Below, piece by piece: positions 658 through 11,263 of a stretch of 64,000 nucleotides of DNA (the first letter of the stretch is position 1; each line of letters begins with the position of its first letter). The stretch covers positions 3,142,001 through 3,206,000 of the forward strand of contig OX638333.1 of assembly GCA_951812895.1 (NCBI GenBank), given 5' to 3'. Both the position numbers and the translations under genes were made by a program. The notes beneath the pieces were generated by a model. That model made no database searches, was not told the origin of the DNA, and was given only the letters and a program-made list of their open reading frames with translations. This stretch comes from an uncultured Roseovarius sp. GTDB lineage: Bacteria > Pseudomonadota > Alphaproteobacteria > Rhodobacterales > Rhodobacteraceae.

Positions 658-2088
658 ATGACACAAGATGAGCATCAGGCGGAACCCGAGCTGGAGCGCG
701 AAGACCCCGAGCTGGACCGGGAAGAGGATGATTCCGATACCGACGCCTATGCGCTTGACCAAAAAGCAGTAGCGCGGATTATTTACGCGGTGGATGCTCA
801 GGACCGGGCGCTGTTGGTTGAAGAGCTCGATCCGTTGCATGCTGCGGATATTGCCGACCTTCTTGAGCAGATAAGTGCGTTTGACCGGCGACGGTTAATC
901 GAGCTCTATGATCGCGATTTCGACGGTGAAATCCTGTCGGAGCTGGACGATTCAATCCGCGAGGAAGTGATCAACATCCTGCATCCCGAAGTTCTGGCCG
1001 AGGCGGTGCGGGAACTGGATTCCGATGATGTGGTGGATCTGGTTGAAGACCTTGAAGAAGGTCAGCAGGAAGCCATTCTCGAAGTTCTGGAAGACAGTGA
1101 CAGGATTGCCGTTAAACACTCGCTGACCTATCCGGAATATTCCGCCGGGCGTCTGATGCAGCGCGAAGTGGTCATGGCGCCCGAGCATTGGAACGTGGGC
1201 GAGGCGATTGATTATCTGCGGGATCAGGATGATCTGCCGGGGCAGTTTTATCACCTGACGCTGGTTGACCCGCGGCTGAAGCCGATTGCGAACGTGTCTT
1301 TGGGGATGTTGATGGGGTCACGGCGCGAGGTGCTGTTGAAATCCATTGTTGAGGAGACGTTTCATACCATTCCTGTGTCTCAGGACGAGGAAGACGTAGC
1401 CTATGCGTTCAATCAGTATCATTTGATTTCCGCACCGGTGGTGGACGAGAATGACCGGCTGGTGGGCATGATCACCATAGATGACGCGATGGTGGTTCTG
1501 GACGAAGAGCATGAGGAAGATATCATGCGCCTTGCCGGTGTGGGCGAGGGCGGGGGCCTGAACGACAACATCTTCGATACGACCAAGCAACGGTTTCCAT
1601 GGCTCGCAGTAAATTTGGTAACTGCGATTCTGGCCTCGCTGGTGATTGCCCAGTTCGAGGCGACGATCGCACAGTTTGTCGCTTTGGCCGTGTTAATGCC
1701 GATCGTGGCGTCGATGGGCGGCAATGCCGGCACGCAAAGCCTGACCGTGGCGGTGCGGGCGATTGCAACCAAGGACCTTACCGGATCGAACGTGTGGCGG
1801 GTGATCCGCCGAGAGGTGCTGGTGGGGCTGGTCAATGGCGTAGTCTTTGCCGTGGTGATGGGGATTGTCGGCGTGATGTGGTTTGGCGGGCCCGAGCTGG
1901 GCTATGTGATAGCCGCGGCGATGGTGATCAATCTGGTGATGGCGGGGCTGGCCGGGACGGTGATTCCGGTGCTGCTGGACCGGGTCGGGGTGGACCCGGC
2001 GCTGGCATCGGGTGCGTTTGTGACCACGGTGACTGATGTGGTGGGCTTTTTCGCGTTTCTGGGGCTGGCGGCGATGGTATTGCTATGA
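658..2088 (+). CDS. mgtE: Magnesium transporter MgtE
   Basis: A 476-residue inner-membrane Mg2+ channel/transporter. The first 30 residues are very acidic. Residues about 30-160 form the MgtE N-domain superhelix, about 165-285 a pair of CBS domains (the cytosolic Mg2+ sensor), and about 315-476 the five-helix pore domain. The pore signature PIVASMGGNAGTQ (residues 348-360) and the last-helix TTVTDVVGFF segment, with the pore aspartate, are both present. The length matches the family. An AGGGAAGC-type ribosome site precedes the ATG. Its stop overlaps the start of the downstream cyclo-ligase (ATGA), so the two are probably translationally coupled. Confidence 0.95.
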   Translation: MTQDEHQAEPELEREDPELDREEDDSDTDAYALDQKAVARIIYAVDAQDRALLVEELDPLHAADIADLLEQISAFDRRRLIELYDRDFDGEILSELDDSIREEVINILHPEVLAEAVRELDSDDVVDLVEDLEEGQQEAILEVLEDSDRIAVKHSLTYPEYSAGRLMQREVVMAPEHWNVGEAIDYLRDQDDLPGQFYHLTLVDPRLKPIANVSLGMLMGSRREVLLKSIVEETFHTIPVSQDEEDVAYAFNQYHLISAPVVDENDRLVGMITIDDAMVVLDEEHEEDIMRLAGVGEGGGLNDNIFDTTKQRFPWLAVNLVTAILASLVIAQFEATIAQFVALAVLMPIVASMGGNAGTQSLTVAVRAIATKDLTGSNVWRVIRREVLVGLVNGVVFAVVMGIVGVMWFGGPELGYVIAAAMVINLVMAGLAGTVIPVLLDRVGVDPALASGAFVTTVTDVVGFFAFLGLAAMVLL

Positions 2089-2642
2089 TGGATCTGACGG
2101 AGATTAAGGCCGAGGCGCGCAAAGCAGCCTTTGCCCGACGCAAAGCGGCGCATGCCGAGGCTGGGCCGGGCGCAGCAGGGGTGCTGGCAGAGGTGCTCGC
2201 AGGCTATCGGGGGGTGCCGCTGGCCGGGTACATGCCGATCCGGACAGAAATTGATCCGTTGCCCGTGATGGCCGAGGCGGCTGCGCATGGCCCGGTCGGG
2301 GTGCCGGTTATTCAGGAGGCAGGCCTGCCGCTGGAGTTTTCACGATGGGAGCCGGGGTGTGCGCTGAAGGATGGGCCGTTTGGTGCGCGGGTGCCTGAAG
2401 TAGAGGATTACTTTGATCCTGAGATCCTGATCGTACCGTTAGTGGCCTTTGATCGTGCCGGTGGCAGGTTGGGTTATGGCGGCGGGTTCTATGACCGCAC
2501 GCTGGAGCGGCTGCGCGCAAGGCGCGCGACGCTGGCGATTGGATTTGCCTATGGGGCGCAGTTGGCTGAGGGGTTGCCGCTGGAACCAACGGATCAGGCG
2601 CTTGATTTGGTGGTGACGGAAGCGGAAGTGATCAGTTATTGA
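2085..2642 (+). CDS. 5-formyltetrahydrofolate cyclo-ligase
   Basis: A 185-residue cytosolic enzyme converting 5-formyl-THF to 5,10-methenyl-THF with ATP, part of folate one-carbon metabolism. The C-terminal signature GGRLGYGGGFYDRTL (nucleotide and folate binding) is intact, and the length matches the family (YgfA/MTHFS). It overlaps the mgtE stop by four bases. In many proteobacteria this gene lies beside 6S RNA, but I see no 6S-like structure here. Downstream, a weak hairpin (CGGCT-GCG-AGCCG, near 2655-2670) followed by a short T run may end the transcript. Confidence 0.92.
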   Translation: MMDLTEIKAEARKAAFARRKAAHAEAGPGAAGVLAEVLAGYRGVPLAGYMPIRTEIDPLPVMAEAAAHGPVGVPVIQEAGLPLEFSRWEPGCALKDGPFGARVPEVEDYFDPEILIVPLVAFDRAGGRLGYGGGFYDRTLERLRARRATLAIGFAYGAQLAEGLPLEPTDQALDLVVTEAEVISY

Positions 2643-2801
2643 GTTTAGACGTAGACGGCTGCGAGCCGACGGGTTTTGTCATGCGAAGCATAAGGTCGTA
2701 GAACTGATATAAGAGGCTACATTTTGCCATGAAGTTGGTGACTGTGCTAATGGTCGTGACAGGCCATTATATTACTTTTCTGCCGGCCCGGATACAGATG
2801 G

Positions 2802-3209
2802 TCAGTCCTTGCCCTTCAGCAACCGATCCGCTTTTTTCCGCACCAGAACGCTTCGCAGGTCATGCATTGCCAGCAACAAGGCGTCGGTCACCTGTTCCAG
2901 CTCTTCGTCCCTGGCCTTTGACTGGGCCCAATGGGTCGTTGTGTTGAGGTAATCAACCGCGCGATGGATATCGTCTATGTCGCGTTGCGACAGCAACTCG
3001 GCCCGTTCTTCCATCCAGTCCTTGATGACTTCCAAATCGCGTTCTGACAGGTCGCGATTGCCATGGGGTTTGATCTGGCCATTGCGAATATTGATTACAG
3101 CGATCTGATCCATTTCGATCCGCCGCTGCCGGTTTTCGGTGTCGACACGAAACACAAATGCGCCATTCTCTCGTACGCGAAAGTAGTAATCGGGCAGATC
3201 TCCGGCCAT
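2802..3209 (-). CDS. Conserved hypothetical protein
   Basis: A 135-residue soluble protein of unknown function. It has no signal peptide, membrane segment or cysteine cluster. The N-terminal half is beta-rich (YYFRVRENGAFVFRVD), the C-terminal half is charged and helical (about residues 50-135), ending in a lysine-rich tail. It lies directly downstream of the aspartate aminotransferase gene on the same strand with a 14-base gap, so the two are probably co-transcribed. Codon use is like the neighbours. The preceding 2643-2801 stretch holds nothing else that I recognise. Confidence 0.7.
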   Translation of the reverse strand: MAGDLPDYYFRVRENGAFVFRVDTENRQRRIEMDQIAVINIRNGQIKPHGNRDLSERDLEVIKDWMEERAELLSQRDIDDIHRAVDYLNTTTHWAQSKARDEELEQVTDALLLAMHDLRSVLVRKKADRLLKGKD

Positions 3210-5360: not shown

Positions 5361-5861
5361 ATGAGTATGCACAACCCCCCGGCGCTGTCGCCTGATCAGA
5401 GGAACTTCATGACCGGGTATCTTGAATCCCTGTCGTTGGTCGAGCGTCTGCACCGATTGCTTTTGGATGTCATCAAGGACGAGTTTGAACGCCTGGGCCA
5501 GCTGGAGATCAATGCGGTACAGGCGTTGTTGCTGTTTAACATTGGCGACAATGAAGTCACCGCAGGAGAGTTGAAATCCCGCGGATATTATCAGGGCAGC
5601 AATGTCAGTTATAATCTTAAAAAGCTGGTCGAAATGGGGTTCATGCATCACCAGAGGTGTGAAATCGACCGCCGTTCGGTGCGCGTACGCCTGACACAGA
5701 AGGGCCGTGAAATCCGTGATGTGGTGACACAGCTGTTTGAGCGGCATGCCGATGGCCTGCAGTCACGCGGTGTTCTGGGGGCCGACGGGATCGACCAGAT
5801 CACCCATTCTCTGCGCCGGGTTGAGCGCTACTGGACCGATCAAATTCGCTATATTTATTGA
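5361..5861 (+). CDS. MarR-family winged-helix regulator
   Basis: A 166-residue transcription regulator. It has an N-terminal dimerisation helix, a winged helix at about residues 55-125 (EVTAGELKSRGYYQGSNVSY as the recognition region, then the wing with RCEIDRRSVRVRLTQKG) and a C-terminal helix. It resembles the alphaproteobacterial LdtR-like branch, which controls cell-envelope genes in some relatives; that link is inference. The ATG at 5361 follows GGAGAAAAATCA. The final codons overlap the convergent DUF1194 gene by seven bases. Confidence 0.85.
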   Translation: MSMHNPPALSPDQRNFMTGYLESLSLVERLHRLLLDVIKDEFERLGQLEINAVQALLLFNIGDNEVTAGELKSRGYYQGSNVSYNLKKLVEMGFMHHQRCEIDRRSVRVRLTQKGREIRDVVTQLFERHADGLQSRGVLGADGIDQITHSLRRVERYWTDQIRYIY

Positions 5862-6571
5862 TCGCTTCTCAGGGACAGAACGGGTGCAGAAACCTCACGC
5901 AGCAGCTTGCGTTTCATAGCATCTGCAAAATCTTCGAAACTGGTGGCAATTTCGACAAAGGCATTTGGCCCCCGGATCACGTCTTCGCGGTAATAGGTTT
6001 CCAGCGATTTGACATTAAGCAGGTTCTTGGTGGTGTTGGCCCTCGCGTTGGCACCGATGACCAGACCGTTAACGGTCACCTGACCAAGGACTGCCTCGGT
6101 CAGTTCACCGGGCGCCTGACCGATATTGGCTGGCCCGTCCCCTGAGATATCCAGGGTGAGCTGCCAGCAGTCAGACTGATCTGCTAAAGCTGCTGCACCG
6201 TATCGAAGGGCCGGGCTGATCGCTGTGGAAGGATAGTTGATATGTATGGGCCCGGTTGCACGCAATTGGCCCGCAATCCGGGACAGTGCGGATTGGGTTT
6301 GCGGGGTGATCCAGCCGATCAGCTCTCGCTGGTAATGCGGGCCACTCCATTCGTAGACCATGATGCGGACCGGCGCGAATGGCATGGTGAGAAATGCGGT
6401 CTGTACCTCTGCATCTTCCAGTGCAGCGGCCAGCCCATCCAATTGCAGGCGGTACTCTGAAGGGTCAACCGAGCCAGAGACATCCAGCCCCAGGGCCAGC
6501 GCTTGCCTGCACGCCGCATTGGCTGGTGCGGCCAGCATCAGCAAAAGCATTACGGCAACAAGCCGTGTCAT
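5855..6571 (-). CDS. DUF1194 secreted protein, copy 2 (von Willebrand A-like)
   Basis: A 238-residue protein with a clear Sec signal peptide (MTRLVAVMLLLMLAAPANAA), so probably periplasmic. The body is a DUF1194 domain, a VWA-like fold: ALGLDVSGSVD near the start carries the DxSxS metal-ion-dependent adhesion motif, and LDISGDGPANIG follows later. Function is unknown. It is the last gene of a three-gene unit: the preceding DUF1194 gene overlaps it by four bases (ATGA). The two copies are clearly related in their DxSxSVD, ISGDG and TVNGLVI segments but diverged elsewhere, so the duplication is old. Confidence 0.82.
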   Translation of the reverse strand: MTRLVAVMLLLMLAAPANAACRQALALGLDVSGSVDPSEYRLQLDGLAAALEDAEVQTAFLTMPFAPVRIMVYEWSGPHYQRELIGWITPQTQSALSRIAGQLRATGPIHINYPSTAISPALRYGAAALADQSDCWQLTLDISGDGPANIGQAPGELTEAVLGQVTVNGLVIGANARANTTKNLLNVKSLETYYREDVIRGPNAFVEIATSFEDFADAMKRKLLREVSAPVLSLRSDQ

Positions 6572-7281
6572 CCACGCCCATCCACCGGTGGTTGGGGCAG
6601 GGTGCCCAGAACGATATCGTTTATTTCGCGGAACAGTTTGCGGGTCATCGCCTCGCGAAAATCGCTGAATCCGTTGGCGGTTTCAACAAATGACCCTTGC
6701 CCCCTGATGACCAGATCGCGGTAATAGGCCTGAACCTCGCTGCCTTGATCAATGATCACAAGGCCGTTGACCGTGACCCCGTCAAAGGGAAAATTGCGAT
6801 AGGCCGCATCCGGACCAAAACCGAAATTGTTGATCCCGTCGCCGGAAATATCGATTACTTTGCGGGTGCAGTCCGGGGCCCTGTCCAACAACGTGGCCCC
6901 ATAGGCCAGCGCCTGGCCCACCGCGGTGGGAAAATCATCTCTGCTGCGCTTCATTGTGCCGAGCGCAAGCGAGGCCAGATCAATATCCCGTCCGCTGCGC
7001 AATGCAGTCCAGTCCAGATGCAGTTTCTGCTGATAAAACCCACTCCATTCATAGACCGCCAGTGCCACGTATCCGGGACCGCCGCCCAGAATAGCGTGTC
7101 GGATTTCCGGGGCATCCAACGCCGCGGCCAACCCCAGCCGCTGCAACTCGTATTCGGCCGTATCAACCGATGCCGACACATCCAGCGCGAGCACCAGTGC
7201 AAGGCGGCACTGTGCCTGCGCCCGGGTGACGGTGGAGATCAGCCCCAGGCATAAGACAGCGCATATGACCGCGCGTTTCAC
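6568..7281 (-). CDS. DUF1194 secreted protein, copy 1 (von Willebrand A-like)
   Basis: A 237-residue homologue of the gene that follows it. The start is placed at GTG 7281, which overlaps the stop of the glyoxalase gene as GTGA; it gives a proper signal peptide (KRAVICAVLCLGLISTVTRAQAQ). The MIDAS-type motif LALDVSASVD and IDISGDGINN are present. Upstream in-frame codons lie within gloA and would spoil the signal peptide. Predicted periplasmic and metal-binding, with unknown partner. Transcription is presumably from the gloA promoter. Confidence 0.82.
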   Translation of the reverse strand: MKRAVICAVLCLGLISTVTRAQAQCRLALVLALDVSASVDTAEYELQRLGLAAALDAPEIRHAILGGGPGYVALAVYEWSGFYQQKLHLDWTALRSGRDIDLASLALGTMKRSRDDFPTAVGQALAYGATLLDRAPDCTRKVIDISGDGINNFGFGPDAAYRNFPFDGVTVNGLVIIDQGSEVQAYYRDLVIRGQGSFVETANGFSDFREAMTRKLFREINDIVLGTLPQPPVDGRG

Positions 7282-7706
7282 CAATGGCCAACGCTTTCCA
7301 TGCTGGCCCACGGCTCCGCCGGGGGCAGGGGGTCACCTTCCTGCAGTAACTCAACGGAGATGTTATCGGGGCTGCGGATGAATGCCATTCGCCCATCGCG
7401 TGGCGGCCGGTTGATGGTGACGCCATTGTCCTGCAGATGCTGGCACATCTCGTAAATATTGCCCACCGAATAGGCGAGATGCCCGAAATGCCGGCTGTCA
7501 CTGGGCAGGCCTTCATCGCCATCCCAGTTCCACGTCAGTTCAACAGGGCAGTCTTCCTGTCCTTCGGCGGCCATGTAAAGAAGGGTAAAGCGGCCCTCTT
7601 CTGAATCCCATCTTTGGGTTTCGCGCAACCCGAGCAATTCGTAAAACTTTCTAGAGGCGTTCAGATCCGCCACGCGGACCATAGTGTGCAGATATCTGAC
7701 TTTCAT
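7278..7706 (-). CDS. gloA: Lactoylglutathione lyase (glyoxalase I)
   Basis: A 142-residue cytosolic enzyme turning the methylglyoxal-glutathione hemithioacetal into S-lactoylglutathione. All four metal ligands of the family can be placed: H7 (YLHTMVRV), E57 (CPVELTWN), H76 (FGHLAYSV) and E119 (ISVELLQEG). Length is typical of the compact bacterial (Ni2+-type) form. It heads a unit with two overlapping DUF1194 genes, an odd partnership for a detoxification enzyme. Confidence 0.92.
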   Translation of the reverse strand: MKVRYLHTMVRVADLNASRKFYELLGLRETQRWDSEEGRFTLLYMAAEGQEDCPVELTWNWDGDEGLPSDSRHFGHLAYSVGNIYEMCQHLQDNGVTINRPPRDGRMAFIRSPDNISVELLQEGDPLPPAEPWASMESVGHW

Positions 7707-7781: not shown

Positions 7782-9194
7782 TCAAAATTCCGATCTTATC
7801 CCCAGTGAAACCGAGGTTTGGTCCACGTCAAACCGGCTGATGTTTGACCGGCTTTTTTCAGCCCGAACAGACAAGGTGGGGACAAACCCCATATAGCCCC
7901 AATCGTTAAAACTGGCGGTGACACCTCCGAAGTATGACTCGTCAAGCCGCCCGCCGGCGACTGGTCCAATCACAGTGTAAGTGTCATAATCCAAAGTGCT
8001 GTACCCAACGGAGAAGCTCATCTTCGCAGGCCCGATCTGTTTGCCCATCACATAGCTTGCAATTCCGGTCCACTGTTCCGAGGCCCGGTTGGCCCCGTTG
8101 CTGTCAATACTGCGATACTGAATTCGCGCACCCAGCGATCCGCCGTCGGGCAACGCATAGGTCAACCCGGCAAAGGCTCCAAAAACCGTAGCATCAGCAA
8201 TCGGGGCAAGCTGGTCAAACTGTTCTTCCACCGATCCGCCAAAGCTTAGCCTGATCTTGTCATTCAGCTTTTGCGAGCGCTCTGCACCGGCGGAAATAAA
8301 ATCATAAAGAGGATCGCCCCCATACCAGACCCGGCCACCTTTGCCGGTAAACCGCCAGTAATGCCCACTTTCACCGCTACTCAAAAGATGGCTGAGACCG
8401 GCCTCGAGCCGAACCGAAGACAGATCACTTCCACTTAATCCAGCCACAGGGTTATTGAACTCCACCCGCCGGCTGTACACGCGGCCCGTTAGCCGGGTTT
8501 CAAACCGCTCGCCCGATGCAATCCGGTAGCTGCCCTGCAAATCACCCGTGGCGACAATTCCGGCGATCGCCTGCGCGCTTGGACTCAAGGTGCCGACCAG
8601 CGGCGAGCCTTCGATTACGTTATAAGGGCTGTTGGAGCCGTTATTGACATTGTCCGAAGGGGTCACCGAGAACCGCAGATTGAAATTCAGCGGGTTATGC
8701 CGCCGGACATTGCGAAAGCTTGTGATGGTTTGATCCCGGCTGGCTTCGTCCGGGGCATATTGAACCGCGCGGCGCAACCAAAGCTGCGATTGTGTGAACC
8801 GCTCGTCGGCGAAGGAAAGACGCGCGGCCAGCTCGGCCGCGTGGTAACGGTCATCATCCGATTGTGCCACGCGATAGGCCTTGGCTGCAGAACGTTTGCC
8901 GCTTTGAAAATCCTTCATCCGCGCAAGCGCCAGAGCTTGGGTAAAATGTGCGTGCCCATCATTCGGATTGGCCTGCAACAACCCCTCTGACAAGGTAAAG
9001 GCCAGTTTGGGCTGGCCTTTCTGCAACGCGTCCTGCGCCAACGCGCGCGCTTGCGGCAGGGTCAGTGTGACAGGGGCTTGCTCATCTTGGGCAGGCTCAT
9101 GCACCGCCTGAACCTGCATCGTCGCAGGGGCGGACCCCCCGGGCTGGCACAGGCTGACCCCAAGGGCGGCGAGAATGAGCTTACGGATTGACAC
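7782..9194 (-). CDS. Predicted surface lipoprotein assembly modifier (SLAM-like, DUF560 barrel)
   Basis: A 470-residue predicted outer-membrane protein. A signal peptide (about residues 1-22) is followed by an alpha-solenoid/TPR-like region (about 45-160: ALAQDALQKG, HAHFTQALALARM, ELAARLSFADERF). From about residue 165 comes a beta-barrel opening with NPLNFNLRFSVTPSDNVNN, the start typical of DUF560/SLAM proteins, and the chain ends in an aromatic-rich strand (SVSLGIRSEF). SLAM proteins move lipoproteins to the outer cell surface. I place the start at GTG 9194, 14 bases inside the upstream lipoprotein gene, because it yields the signal peptide. The adjacent lipoprotein is the obvious candidate client. 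Confidence 0.75.
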   Translation of the reverse strand: MSIRKLILAALGVSLCQPGGSAPATMQVQAVHEPAQDEQAPVTLTLPQARALAQDALQKGQPKLAFTLSEGLLQANPNDGHAHFTQALALARMKDFQSGKRSAAKAYRVAQSDDDRYHAAELAARLSFADERFTQSQLWLRRAVQYAPDEASRDQTITSFRNVRRHNPLNFNLRFSVTPSDNVNNGSNSPYNVIEGSPLVGTLSPSAQAIAGIVATGDLQGSYRIASGERFETRLTGRVYSRRVEFNNPVAGLSGSDLSSVRLEAGLSHLLSSGESGHYWRFTGKGGRVWYGGDPLYDFISAGAERSQKLNDKIRLSFGGSVEEQFDQLAPIADATVFGAFAGLTYALPDGGSLGARIQYRSIDSNGANRASEQWTGIASYVMGKQIGPAKMSFSVGYSTLDYDTYTVIGPVAGGRLDESYFGGVTASFNDWGYMGFVPTLSVRAEKSRSNISRFDVDQTSVSLGIRSEF

Positions 9195-10182
9195 CGGCAC
9201 AAATCGCGTCTTCCACAGGTTGCCCACATTGGTCGAGTACAAATACGCCGTACTCTTCTTCGGCATCTGTACCCAGGGCAACATCATTCGGGCCGTCGAA
9301 CTGGGTCAAATGTAGAACTCCAGCTACGCCTGACGCGTTTGTACCTCCAAATACCCCCGCATAATCTCCAATATCCGAGCCGACAACATTTTCAGCTGGG
9401 AAAGGTGTTCCGTCAAAATTGGTCTGATCATATTCAATTTGTGTCCCGGTAAAGGTGCCGTTTGCATCAATGGCAGTACTGATCAATACGATTGACGGTA
9501 AAGCGGTTCCCGTATCGACCAGAACCCGATTGAAGATGTTCCCTTCGACAGAATTGTCTGCGAAATCCGCTTGGAAAACAACATCCCCGGTGATTTCGGC
9601 CGATTGGTCGGGTATGAGCTCTTCCGGCGTACCTGCAGGAACCGCTAACAAATCACCGCCGTCGCCACGCAGATTGGTCAGTCCGAGATAGTCACCTGCA
9701 TAGGTCACCAAACCGGTTGTTGGTGTGACTGCCGGCGGCGTGTAGTCGCCGTCGCGTTCAAAATAACCCCCGCCAAAGAACCTGTTGCGTGGCCCGCCGG
9801 TGACAACCACACCCGCACGCACCGCGCCCTCATTGCGTGATTGCGCCACATAAGCCGTGGAATGCCGGTCTAGCGGGTCATCCTGTGCGGTGTAGGCTTC
9901 GTATCCTGGTCGATCCAGCGCAGCTTTCCGGGTATAGACCGCTGAAAACGGCAGCTCATCCAGAGTGATGCCTTCGACTGTCAGCGTCATAGCAACCGGA
10001 TCATATACCAATCTGGTCAAGTCGTTTGCGACCGCTGCCGGCACCGTAACCGCAGTGTCCTCTGTAACAACGCCGGGGACCACCGGTGCCACGACAGGTG
10101 TAACCTCCGGAGTAAACGGATTAGACCCCGAACAGCCAAAAAGATATGCCGGTAAAACCAGCATCGCCAGATAACGTTTCAT
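9181..10182 (-). CDS. Lipoprotein, predicted SLAM client with TbpB-like C-terminal barrel
   Basis: A 333-residue protein beginning MKRYLAMLVLPAYLFGC with a lipobox whose lipidated residue would be Cys17. A proline/valine/threonine-rich linker (about 20-55) follows, as in surface-tethered lipoproteins. The rest is rich in G, D, T and aromatic residues; near the end, GDYAGVFGGTNASGVAGVLH resembles the barrel strand of transferrin-binding-protein-B-like domains. The last residues hold two cysteines (LDQCGQPVEDAICAG), perhaps disulphide-linked. The ATG at 10182 was preferred to an in-frame TTG at 10200. It overlaps the SLAM-like gene by 14 bases. The ligand is unknown. Confidence 0.7.
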   Translation of the reverse strand: MKRYLAMLVLPAYLFGCSGSNPFTPEVTPVVAPVVPGVVTEDTAVTVPAAVANDLTRLVYDPVAMTLTVEGITLDELPFSAVYTRKAALDRPGYEAYTAQDDPLDRHSTAYVAQSRNEGAVRAGVVVTGGPRNRFFGGGYFERDGDYTPPAVTPTTGLVTYAGDYLGLTNLRGDGGDLLAVPAGTPEELIPDQSAEITGDVVFQADFADNSVEGNIFNRVLVDTGTALPSIVLISTAIDANGTFTGTQIEYDQTNFDGTPFPAENVVGSDIGDYAGVFGGTNASGVAGVLHLTQFDGPNDVALGTDAEEEYGVFVLDQCGQPVEDAICAGVNP

Positions 10183-10441
10183 AGTGAGCACTGCCCTCAA
10201 TATGTATGTTTTTTATTCTTTTGCCTGAAATTCAGCGCATTACGCGGCAAAGTCAATGTTTTCCTTTGCCCGCAAACCGGGAATCGTGCCACTGTTGCAT
10301 GCCTGCCTGCACCGCATATTGAGTTTTCGATTGCGTAATCCTCAATATATAGTGGGCACCGACTCACCCTTGTTGCCAGCGCCCGGGATGTACATTTGAC
10401 TGAGCCGGGCAAACGTGAAGACATAAGACCGAGAGACACCG

Positions 10442-11263
10442 ATGAAGCAGTATCACACGGCGCTACAGACAGTTCTGGACACCGGCACTCCGTCGACCGA
10501 CCGTACGGGCACGGGAACGCTGTCTTGTTTTGGCATGCAGTCCCGGTATTCGCTTGATGATGGCTTTCCCCTGGTGACCACGAAAAAGCTGCATATCCGT
10601 TCTATCATCTATGAACTGCTTTGGTTCCTTTCCGGCGACACCAATATCGCCTACCTCAAGGAAAACGGGGTTTCGATCTGGGATGAGTGGGCAGATGAAA
10701 ACGGGGACCTTGGACCTGTTTATGGTCACCAATGGCGCCATTTTCCCGCATTGGAGCCAACGGATGACCCTGCATTGTTTCGAGCGCGTGAGATCGACCA
10801 GATCACCCAGTTGATCGAAATGATCCGGAAATCTCCGGACAGTCGCCGCCTGATCGTATCAGCCTGGAATCCGGGTGATGTGCCGGAGATGGCGCTGCCA
10901 CCCTGTCACACGCTTTGGCAGATACGTATCATCGGGCGGAAGATGCATCTGCAGCTTTATCAGCGATCCGCGGATATGTTCCTTGGTGTGCCTTTCAACA
11001 TCGCGTCTTATGCACTGCTTTTGGAGATGCTGGCGCATGTGACGGGGTATGAGGCGGGGGATTTTGTTCACACGCTCGGTGATGCACACATCTATTCCAA
11101 CCATGTTGATCAGGTCCGCCTTCAACTTTCCCGAACTCCGAAACCTTTGCCCAAGCTTCGGATCACGCGGGACGTGCAGTCAATTTTCGATTTTTGCTAC
11201 GAGGATTTTGAAATTTTGGATTACGTCCCGGATGCGCATATCAAGGCACCGGTCGCAGTCTGA
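10442..11263 (+). CDS. thyA: Thymidylate synthase
   Basis: A 273-residue folate-dependent enzyme making dTMP from dUMP. The catalytic cysteine is C155 in LPPCHTLWQ. The N-terminal [11 protein letters not shown] phosphate loop, the dUMP-binding [17 protein letters not shown] and the C-terminal APVAV end are intact. The length is close to the E. coli type. The region upstream (10183-10441) is a divergent promoter region shared with the lipoprotein gene. Just after the stop, a nested stem (GAGTC...GACTC around GCAC-AAA-GTGC, 11262-11290) could end transcription but lacks a T run. Confidence 0.95.

Follow-up and report, generated by a model that had tools for sequence, protein, structure and literature searches.

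Among the type XI secretion systems (T11SS), the described locus closest to the one treated here is the conserved marine cluster 3 locus of Rhodobacteraceae/Roseobacteraceae, reported in 2025 (PMC12282271) and composed of a T11SS barrel, a lipoprotein cargo, a lactoylglutathione lyase, a DUF1194 protein and a flavin-dependent thymidylate synthase. According to that paper, 8 of the 145 loci of cluster 3 have TbpBBD, the ratio of predicted cargo to barrels is 0.21, and cluster 3 barrels seldom accompany cargo, or may have lost it. Pseudooceanicola marinus LMG 23705 is given there as the only locus of 11 examined without cargo, and DUF1194 as the common neighbour.

The locus analyzed here lies in a stretch of 64,000 nucleotides from an uncultured Roseovarius sp. 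(contig OX638333.1 of assembly GCA_951812895.1, positions 3,142,001 to 3,206,000), referred to as the window, and contains a lipoprotein (cargo) gene overlapped by the gene of a predicted outer-membrane barrel protein. These two genes very probably constitute a one-client T11SS (Slam-type) surface-display unit, because both proteins score over family cut-offs and are single copies in their genome, because barrel and cargo are nearly obligate companions, lie next to each other and diverge together in the family, and because their genes overlap.

The overlapping lipoprotein and barrel genes

The features of the pair are as follows:

9181..10182, minus strand: cargo lipoprotein gene (333 aa; mature protein of 317 aa counted from the lipid-anchor cysteine)
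10132..10134, minus strand: codon for the cysteine that carries the lipid (residue 17, closing the lipobox LFGC and followed by SGSNPF), read from the sequence
10117-10134, minus strand: NPF-like element just after the lipid cysteine, from the cargo alignment (A2, see below)
9181..9194, minus strand: overlap of the lipoprotein and barrel genes (14 bases, with the barrel start at the GTG at 9194)
7782..9194, minus strand: gene of the predicted T11SS/Slam-type outer-membrane protein (470 aa; signal peptide, TPR-like N-terminal part and SlipAM/DUF560 barrel)

The lipoprotein open reading frame (ORF) begins with an ATG at 10182 and stops at 9181-9183, and its lipobox, MKRYLAMLVLPAYLFG immediately before the lipid cysteine (LFG, then C as residue 17), was identified from the sequence with a regular expression, the means by which lipoboxes were judged in the window and in its relatives. 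The barrel frame, which follows it in the order of transcription on the minus strand and ends with a stop at 7782, has an in-frame GTG at two positions, 9200 and 9194; the second yields the protein of 470 aa and the 14-base overlap (confirming what the first-pass annotation had placed there), and the first an overlap of 20 bases. The overlap suggests that both genes could be translationally coupled.

The first-pass annotation had also read in the lipoprotein a lipobox, a flexible linker and a TbpB-like C-terminal segment, and in its partner a solenoid followed by a DUF560-like barrel, and both descriptions are borne out at the level of sequence, the solenoid less clearly than the other features. 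Each protein exceeds the Pfam cut-off of its family. The lipoprotein has a P/V/T-rich linker and matches TbpB_B_D (PF01298) with 26.8 bits over residues 154-290 (cut-off 26), and the barrel protein matches SlipAM, formerly DUF560 (PF04575), with 24.6 bits (cut-off 22). Each of these models finds a single match in the genome, as does the cargo profile built from alignment A2 (E 1.7e-78). The helical repeat is weak in the window protein (PEP_TPR_lipo, E 7.7e-5, far under the family cut-off, with no repeat family reaching its cut-off there), and the nearest named relative of the barrel, at 61%, is that of Roseovarius aestuariivivens.

Because the window scores are marginal, both families were tested in relatives, using a cargo alignment (A2) of the window lipoprotein with 61 of the 71 lipobox-bearing rows (62 sequences) and a barrel alignment (A3) of the window barrel with 47 of 80 barrels (48 sequences), in addition to A1, which joins 16 relatives to the window. 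Of the 48 aligned barrels, 45 match SlipAM at E <= 1 and 30 match TPR_14. Among the 62 aligned lipoproteins, the Pfam families FHBP_C and TbpB_B_D are matched in 31 and 20, respectively, and the NCBIfam model slam_lipo in 27. Identity to the window lipoprotein ranges from 23 to 61% in these relatives, and the lipid cysteine is invariant in them by construction of the alignment. Two cargo subfamilies were seen, one of which (24 of 75 cargo) ends, like the window lipoprotein, in a cysteine pair; an LDRH-like motif is present in 20 of these 24 and in none of the other cargo among the 75.

Linkage of barrel and cargo across the family

The association of barrel and cargo was followed in 149 genomes of the family, of which 78, with 83 places, are barrel-positive (barrel match at E <= 1e-5). 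A first set comprised 80 of these 83 places with their flanks (the three left out being fragments in G133, G087 and G114); phmmer with the window lipoprotein retrieved 30 cargo ORFs from it, and a profile made from those 30 retrieved 73, in 72 of the 80 loci. In a second set of 80 named loci, found independently by a barrel pattern, the same 30-seed profile identified one cargo gene at 75 loci, always 5' to the barrel gene; none of the remaining ORFs, out of 3,987, matched it. Of these 75 cargo, 69 are not identical to any seed member and 71 have a lipobox by regular expression. The five loci without cargo are L127 and L154, where the barrel lies at the edge of the sequence, and L122, L167 and L179, the last with a short lipobox protein upstream of the barrel that matches FHBP_C weakly (E 0.018).

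In whole genomes the cargo alignment finds a match in 73 of the 78 barrel-positive genomes versus 1 of the 71 barrel-negative ones (Fisher p 3e-35). Where a genome has both, cargo and barrel are adjacent in 71 cases out of 73. The single barrel-negative genome with cargo, G115, is 81% complete. Among the cargo-less barrel-positive genomes, G001, G067 and G146 have weak barrel matches (E 5e-7 to 3e-10); upstream of the barrel, G079 encodes a short lipobox protein of another type and G140 none. Barrel and cargo thus appear to be coupled far more strictly than print suggests, a contrast drawn between different samples (149 genomes and 80 loci here, 145 loci in PMC12282271).

Some loci depart from the common arrangement. 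In G060, G061 and G132 an additional or sole cargo lies off the contig of the barrel, which could represent unlinked clients or breaks in the assemblies. Locus L215, from G115, contains at 1945-3069 (minus strand) a match to the cargo profile (E 2e-44) adjoining a glyoxalase gene, and no ORF matching the barrel. Loktanella sp. IMCC34160 has two nearly identical barrels, of 463 and 461 aa with 445 identical residues, in L122 and L128, the latter being a usual locus with cargo and the former lying elsewhere, with neither a cargo match nor the usual neighbours.

Pairwise distances were compared in 73 of the 80 loci together with the window (74 sequences), and correlate with r 0.78 between barrel and cargo, 0.34 between barrel and glyoxalase and 0.18 between cargo and glyoxalase. 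The partial correlation of barrel and cargo given the glyoxalase is 0.77, a value that none of 2000 permutations reached. Judged from these distances, the barrel-cargo pair is behaving as a unit distinct from its glyoxalase neighbour, whether or not both genes are transferred together.

A rival reading is that the genes are inherited together while the barrel acts as a porin or a different kind of export channel, with the lipoprotein staying in the periplasm. Several TPR-barrel proteins, such as PgaA (named in PMC8406197), have other functions, and the marginal family scores in the window would agree with this possibility. Against it, SlipAM is the barrel family matched, and 45 of 48 relatives match it too; cargo families from two libraries (Pfam and NCBIfam) match the cargo; and barrel-negative genomes almost never have cargo (1 of 71). 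A periplasmic lipoprotein is highly improbable.

A number of results nevertheless count against assigning the pair to a one-client display unit. The SlipAM and TbpB_B_D scores of the window proteins barely exceed the Pfam gathering cut-offs, and the lipoprotein reaches 27 bits with slam_lipo (NF041636), whose cut-off is 80, so it is similar to this equivalog but not filed in it. Against the sequences of the PDB the lipoprotein as a single query has no match, and the cargo profile has two weak ones (E 0.26 and 0.56, the second being the lipoprotein 1ys5). The barrel protein as a single query has four (E 0.55-0.72) and the barrel profile, which matches designed TPR proteins at E 1e-20, finds nothing but TPR proteins among the 60 matches listed. 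Strand numbers and the cargo barrel are taken from sequence families. Cargo is not matched in 5 of the 78 barrel-positive genomes, and in G060 and G061 no cargo match shares a contig with the barrel. As for the co-divergence, the glyoxalase is a slow and limited control, since it changes far less (mean identity of 77%, versus 33% and 35% for the two pair proteins), and co-transfer or co-inheritance as a cassette would equally produce it. Finally, no report of surface exposure for a member of the Rhodobacteraceae was found in the literature consulted.

Proposed surface display and the putative role of the client

By analogy with the reconstituted Slam system (PMC9090332), we infer that the lipoprotein is flipped to the cell surface. 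After export by Sec it would be held unfolded by a chaperone, receive its lipid at Cys17 and travel to the outer membrane by the Lol pathway. There its co-translated partner, through both its TPR-like periplasmic part and its barrel, would recognise the C-terminal barrel domain of the unfolded cargo. The barrel would then pass the lipoprotein across the outer membrane, with folding taking place outside and the protein remaining tethered by its lipid; the P/V/T-rich linker would hold the displayed domain off the membrane. A sequence of the NP[FLWIVH] type is present within 14 residues of the lipid cysteine in 50 of 71 cargo and occurs elsewhere in the cargo 11 times in 21,669 residues, and this NPF-like element could be a sorting or recognition element. 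In two control sets of other lipoproteins it was found in 0 of 13 and 0 of 11, both sets being small and noisy; the set of 11 is composed mostly of spurious-looking sequences, one with a similar NPY, and its filter misses the window's own lipoprotein, so a cargo-specific role of the NPF signal is left as an idea.

The first-pass annotation had suggested that the client might capture iron, haem or another nutrient, and this idea has been weakened. In its TbpB/HpuA-style or haemophilin-style form, the displayed lipoprotein would bind an iron or haem source and hand it over to a TonB-dependent receptor, in line with its TbpB_B_D score over the cut-off and with the haemophores and metal-binding proteins included among known T11SS cargo (PMC12282271). 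However, the genome of the window, which is a single contig and 99.84% complete, has no match to the receptor barrel PF00593 (E <= 0.01), the plug PF07715 (E <= 1e-5) or TonB_C PF03544 (E <= 1); the same models match 3, 3 and 7 of 14 control genomes, respectively. By these models a TbpB-TbpA-like hand-over is unavailable here. A plug domain is matched in 42 of 78 barrel-positive versus 43 of 71 other genomes (p 0.51), that is, with no association and with 36 barrel-positive genomes lacking it, and the annotated neighbours of the pair include no receptor or iron gene. In addition, TonB receptors are reported as rare at cluster 3 loci (PMC12282271), and TbpB_B_D is a fold label that does not prove iron binding. 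Capture of iron or haem for a TonB-dependent receptor is thus unlikely. It was rejected as leading idea because the TonB machinery is not matched in the genome and the plug is not associated with the barrel. According to the domain models, a TonB-dependent receptor is not a general requirement for the pair, and a TbpB-style partnership with one is improbable in this genome; nutrient capture may still proceed by a TonB-independent route.

The displayed domain is presumed to bind something outside the cell, such as a surface, a host, a polysaccharide or a small ligand, and for the client a role as partner of a TonB receptor is less likely than one as an adhesin-like or ligand-binding protein. 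Such a binding function would reside in its variable N-terminal half. A specific version of this, in which the displayed lipoprotein attaches the cell, or binds, to polysaccharide or to the surfaces of algae or animals and does not serve uptake, has a substantial chance of being correct, somewhat short of even. The cargo diverges fast (23-61% identity) while its anchor and C-terminal part are conserved, the TonB machinery was not found in the genome, and an adhesin-like surface cargo, NilC, is known in Xenorhabdus (PMC9100927); on the other hand, the N-terminal half showed no match to an adhesin domain, in the window protein or in its aligned relatives.

Neighbouring genes and comparison with described systems

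The pair is flanked by the following genes:

5855..6571, minus strand: second DUF1194 neighbour (PF06707, 5e-61)
6568..7311, minus strand: first DUF1194 neighbour (PF06707, 6e-68), in fixed synteny and not specific to the pair
7278..7706, minus strand: glyoxalase-family neighbour (PF00903, 7e-17), in fixed synteny and not specific to the pair
10442..11263, plus strand: divergent thymidylate synthase of the ThyA type (PF00303, 388 bits)

For cluster 3, PMC12282271 suggests DUF1194 as an alternative or additional cargo, and it is conceivable that DUF1194 and the glyoxalase belong to the system. DUF1194 was counted there at 102 of 145 loci, and here 47 of the 69 barrel loci with a glyoxalase have it no more than 1.5 kb away from that gene; but the frequency of DUF1194 is the same with and without the barrel (64 of 78 versus 60 of 71 genomes, p 0.83), and a glyoxalase homologue is present in 67 of the 71 barrel-negative genomes. 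In the best 30 of these 67 barrel-negative glyoxalase loci, DUF1194 adjoins the glyoxalase in 20 and no ORF matches the barrel profile up to E 10. Membership of either gene in the system is accordingly very unlikely, and both were rejected as parts of it, their presence and neighbourhood being independent of the barrel; since their linkage persists without it, it is best read as a conserved order of genes, with the pair inserted in it. Within the stretches fetched, 9 of the 69 barrel loci with glyoxalase matched ThyA. Upstream of the lipoprotein gene (10215-10280), a ATTGACTT stretch is shared by L112, L113 and L118 and not by L134 in a five-region alignment, and is possibly a promoter element; a promoter scan found 2 sites versus 2.1 expected, and hence provides no promoter evidence.

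With the same neighbours as the cluster 3 locus in print, the locus of the window is not new as a kind. Compared with the legend of Fig. 8 in PMC12282271, it matches in the barrel, the cargo with a C-terminal barrel domain, the glyoxalase, DUF1194 and the thymidylate synthase (flavin-dependent in print, of the ThyA type here), a likeness drawn from gene content and neighbours. Thus, of the proposal in the first-pass annotation, a Rhodobacteraceae SLAM-like pair with its client alongside is sustained by families, co-occurrence and co-divergence, and its novelty is lost to this publication, beyond which no paper on Rhodobacteraceae T11SS cargo was among the literature matches listed.

PMC12282271 presents cargo as rare and DUF1194 as telling, and the opposite is observed here on both counts. 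The P. marinus LMG 23705 locus named in that paper (L136) is a relative and contains a cargo gene that overlaps the barrel frame, has a lipobox and matches the cargo profile at E 2e-28. Its FHBP_C match is under the cut-off (E 0.042) and its identity to the window lipoprotein is 26% over 173 residues, suggesting why a search with family models would miss it. A wider proposal, offered tentatively and as less likely than not, is that the T11SS of marine Rhodobacterales are dedicated, near-obligate display units for one client each, in which a TonB-linked role in nutrition has been given up. Barrel and client would evolve together as an exchangeable cassette whose chromosomal niche (thymidylate synthase, pair, glyoxalase, DUF1194) is fixed, with clients varying outside the start of the tether (lipid cysteine to NPF) and the C-terminal recognition domain, the NPF perhaps being part of a sorting or recognition signal. 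Should adjacent cargo indeed be nearly universal but too diverged for family models, this would correct the printed picture of a marine T11SS branch that is mostly cargo-less and has perhaps moved to another function. The branch would then be a display system like others, open to direct testing, in which every barrel has its defined client. Its many naturally matched barrels and clients would allow recognition to be worked out, and surface display would there have to be explained by something other than TonB receptors.

The Neisseria systems Slam1 and Slam2, with TbpB, LbpB, fHbp and HpuA (PMC5449769, PMC9090332), resemble the window pair in the SlipAM/DUF560 barrel with an N-terminal helical repeat and in the adjoining lipobox client with a TbpB-like barrel domain, whereas the window pair is very distant in sequence, has no TonB receptor or TonB match and has one client. 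The Xenorhabdus TXISS-1B system HrpB/HrpC (PMC8406197) is alike in that the barrel gene adjoins that of a dedicated cargo, and the window pair differs from it in that no receptor is matched in its genome and in that its cargo carries a lipobox.

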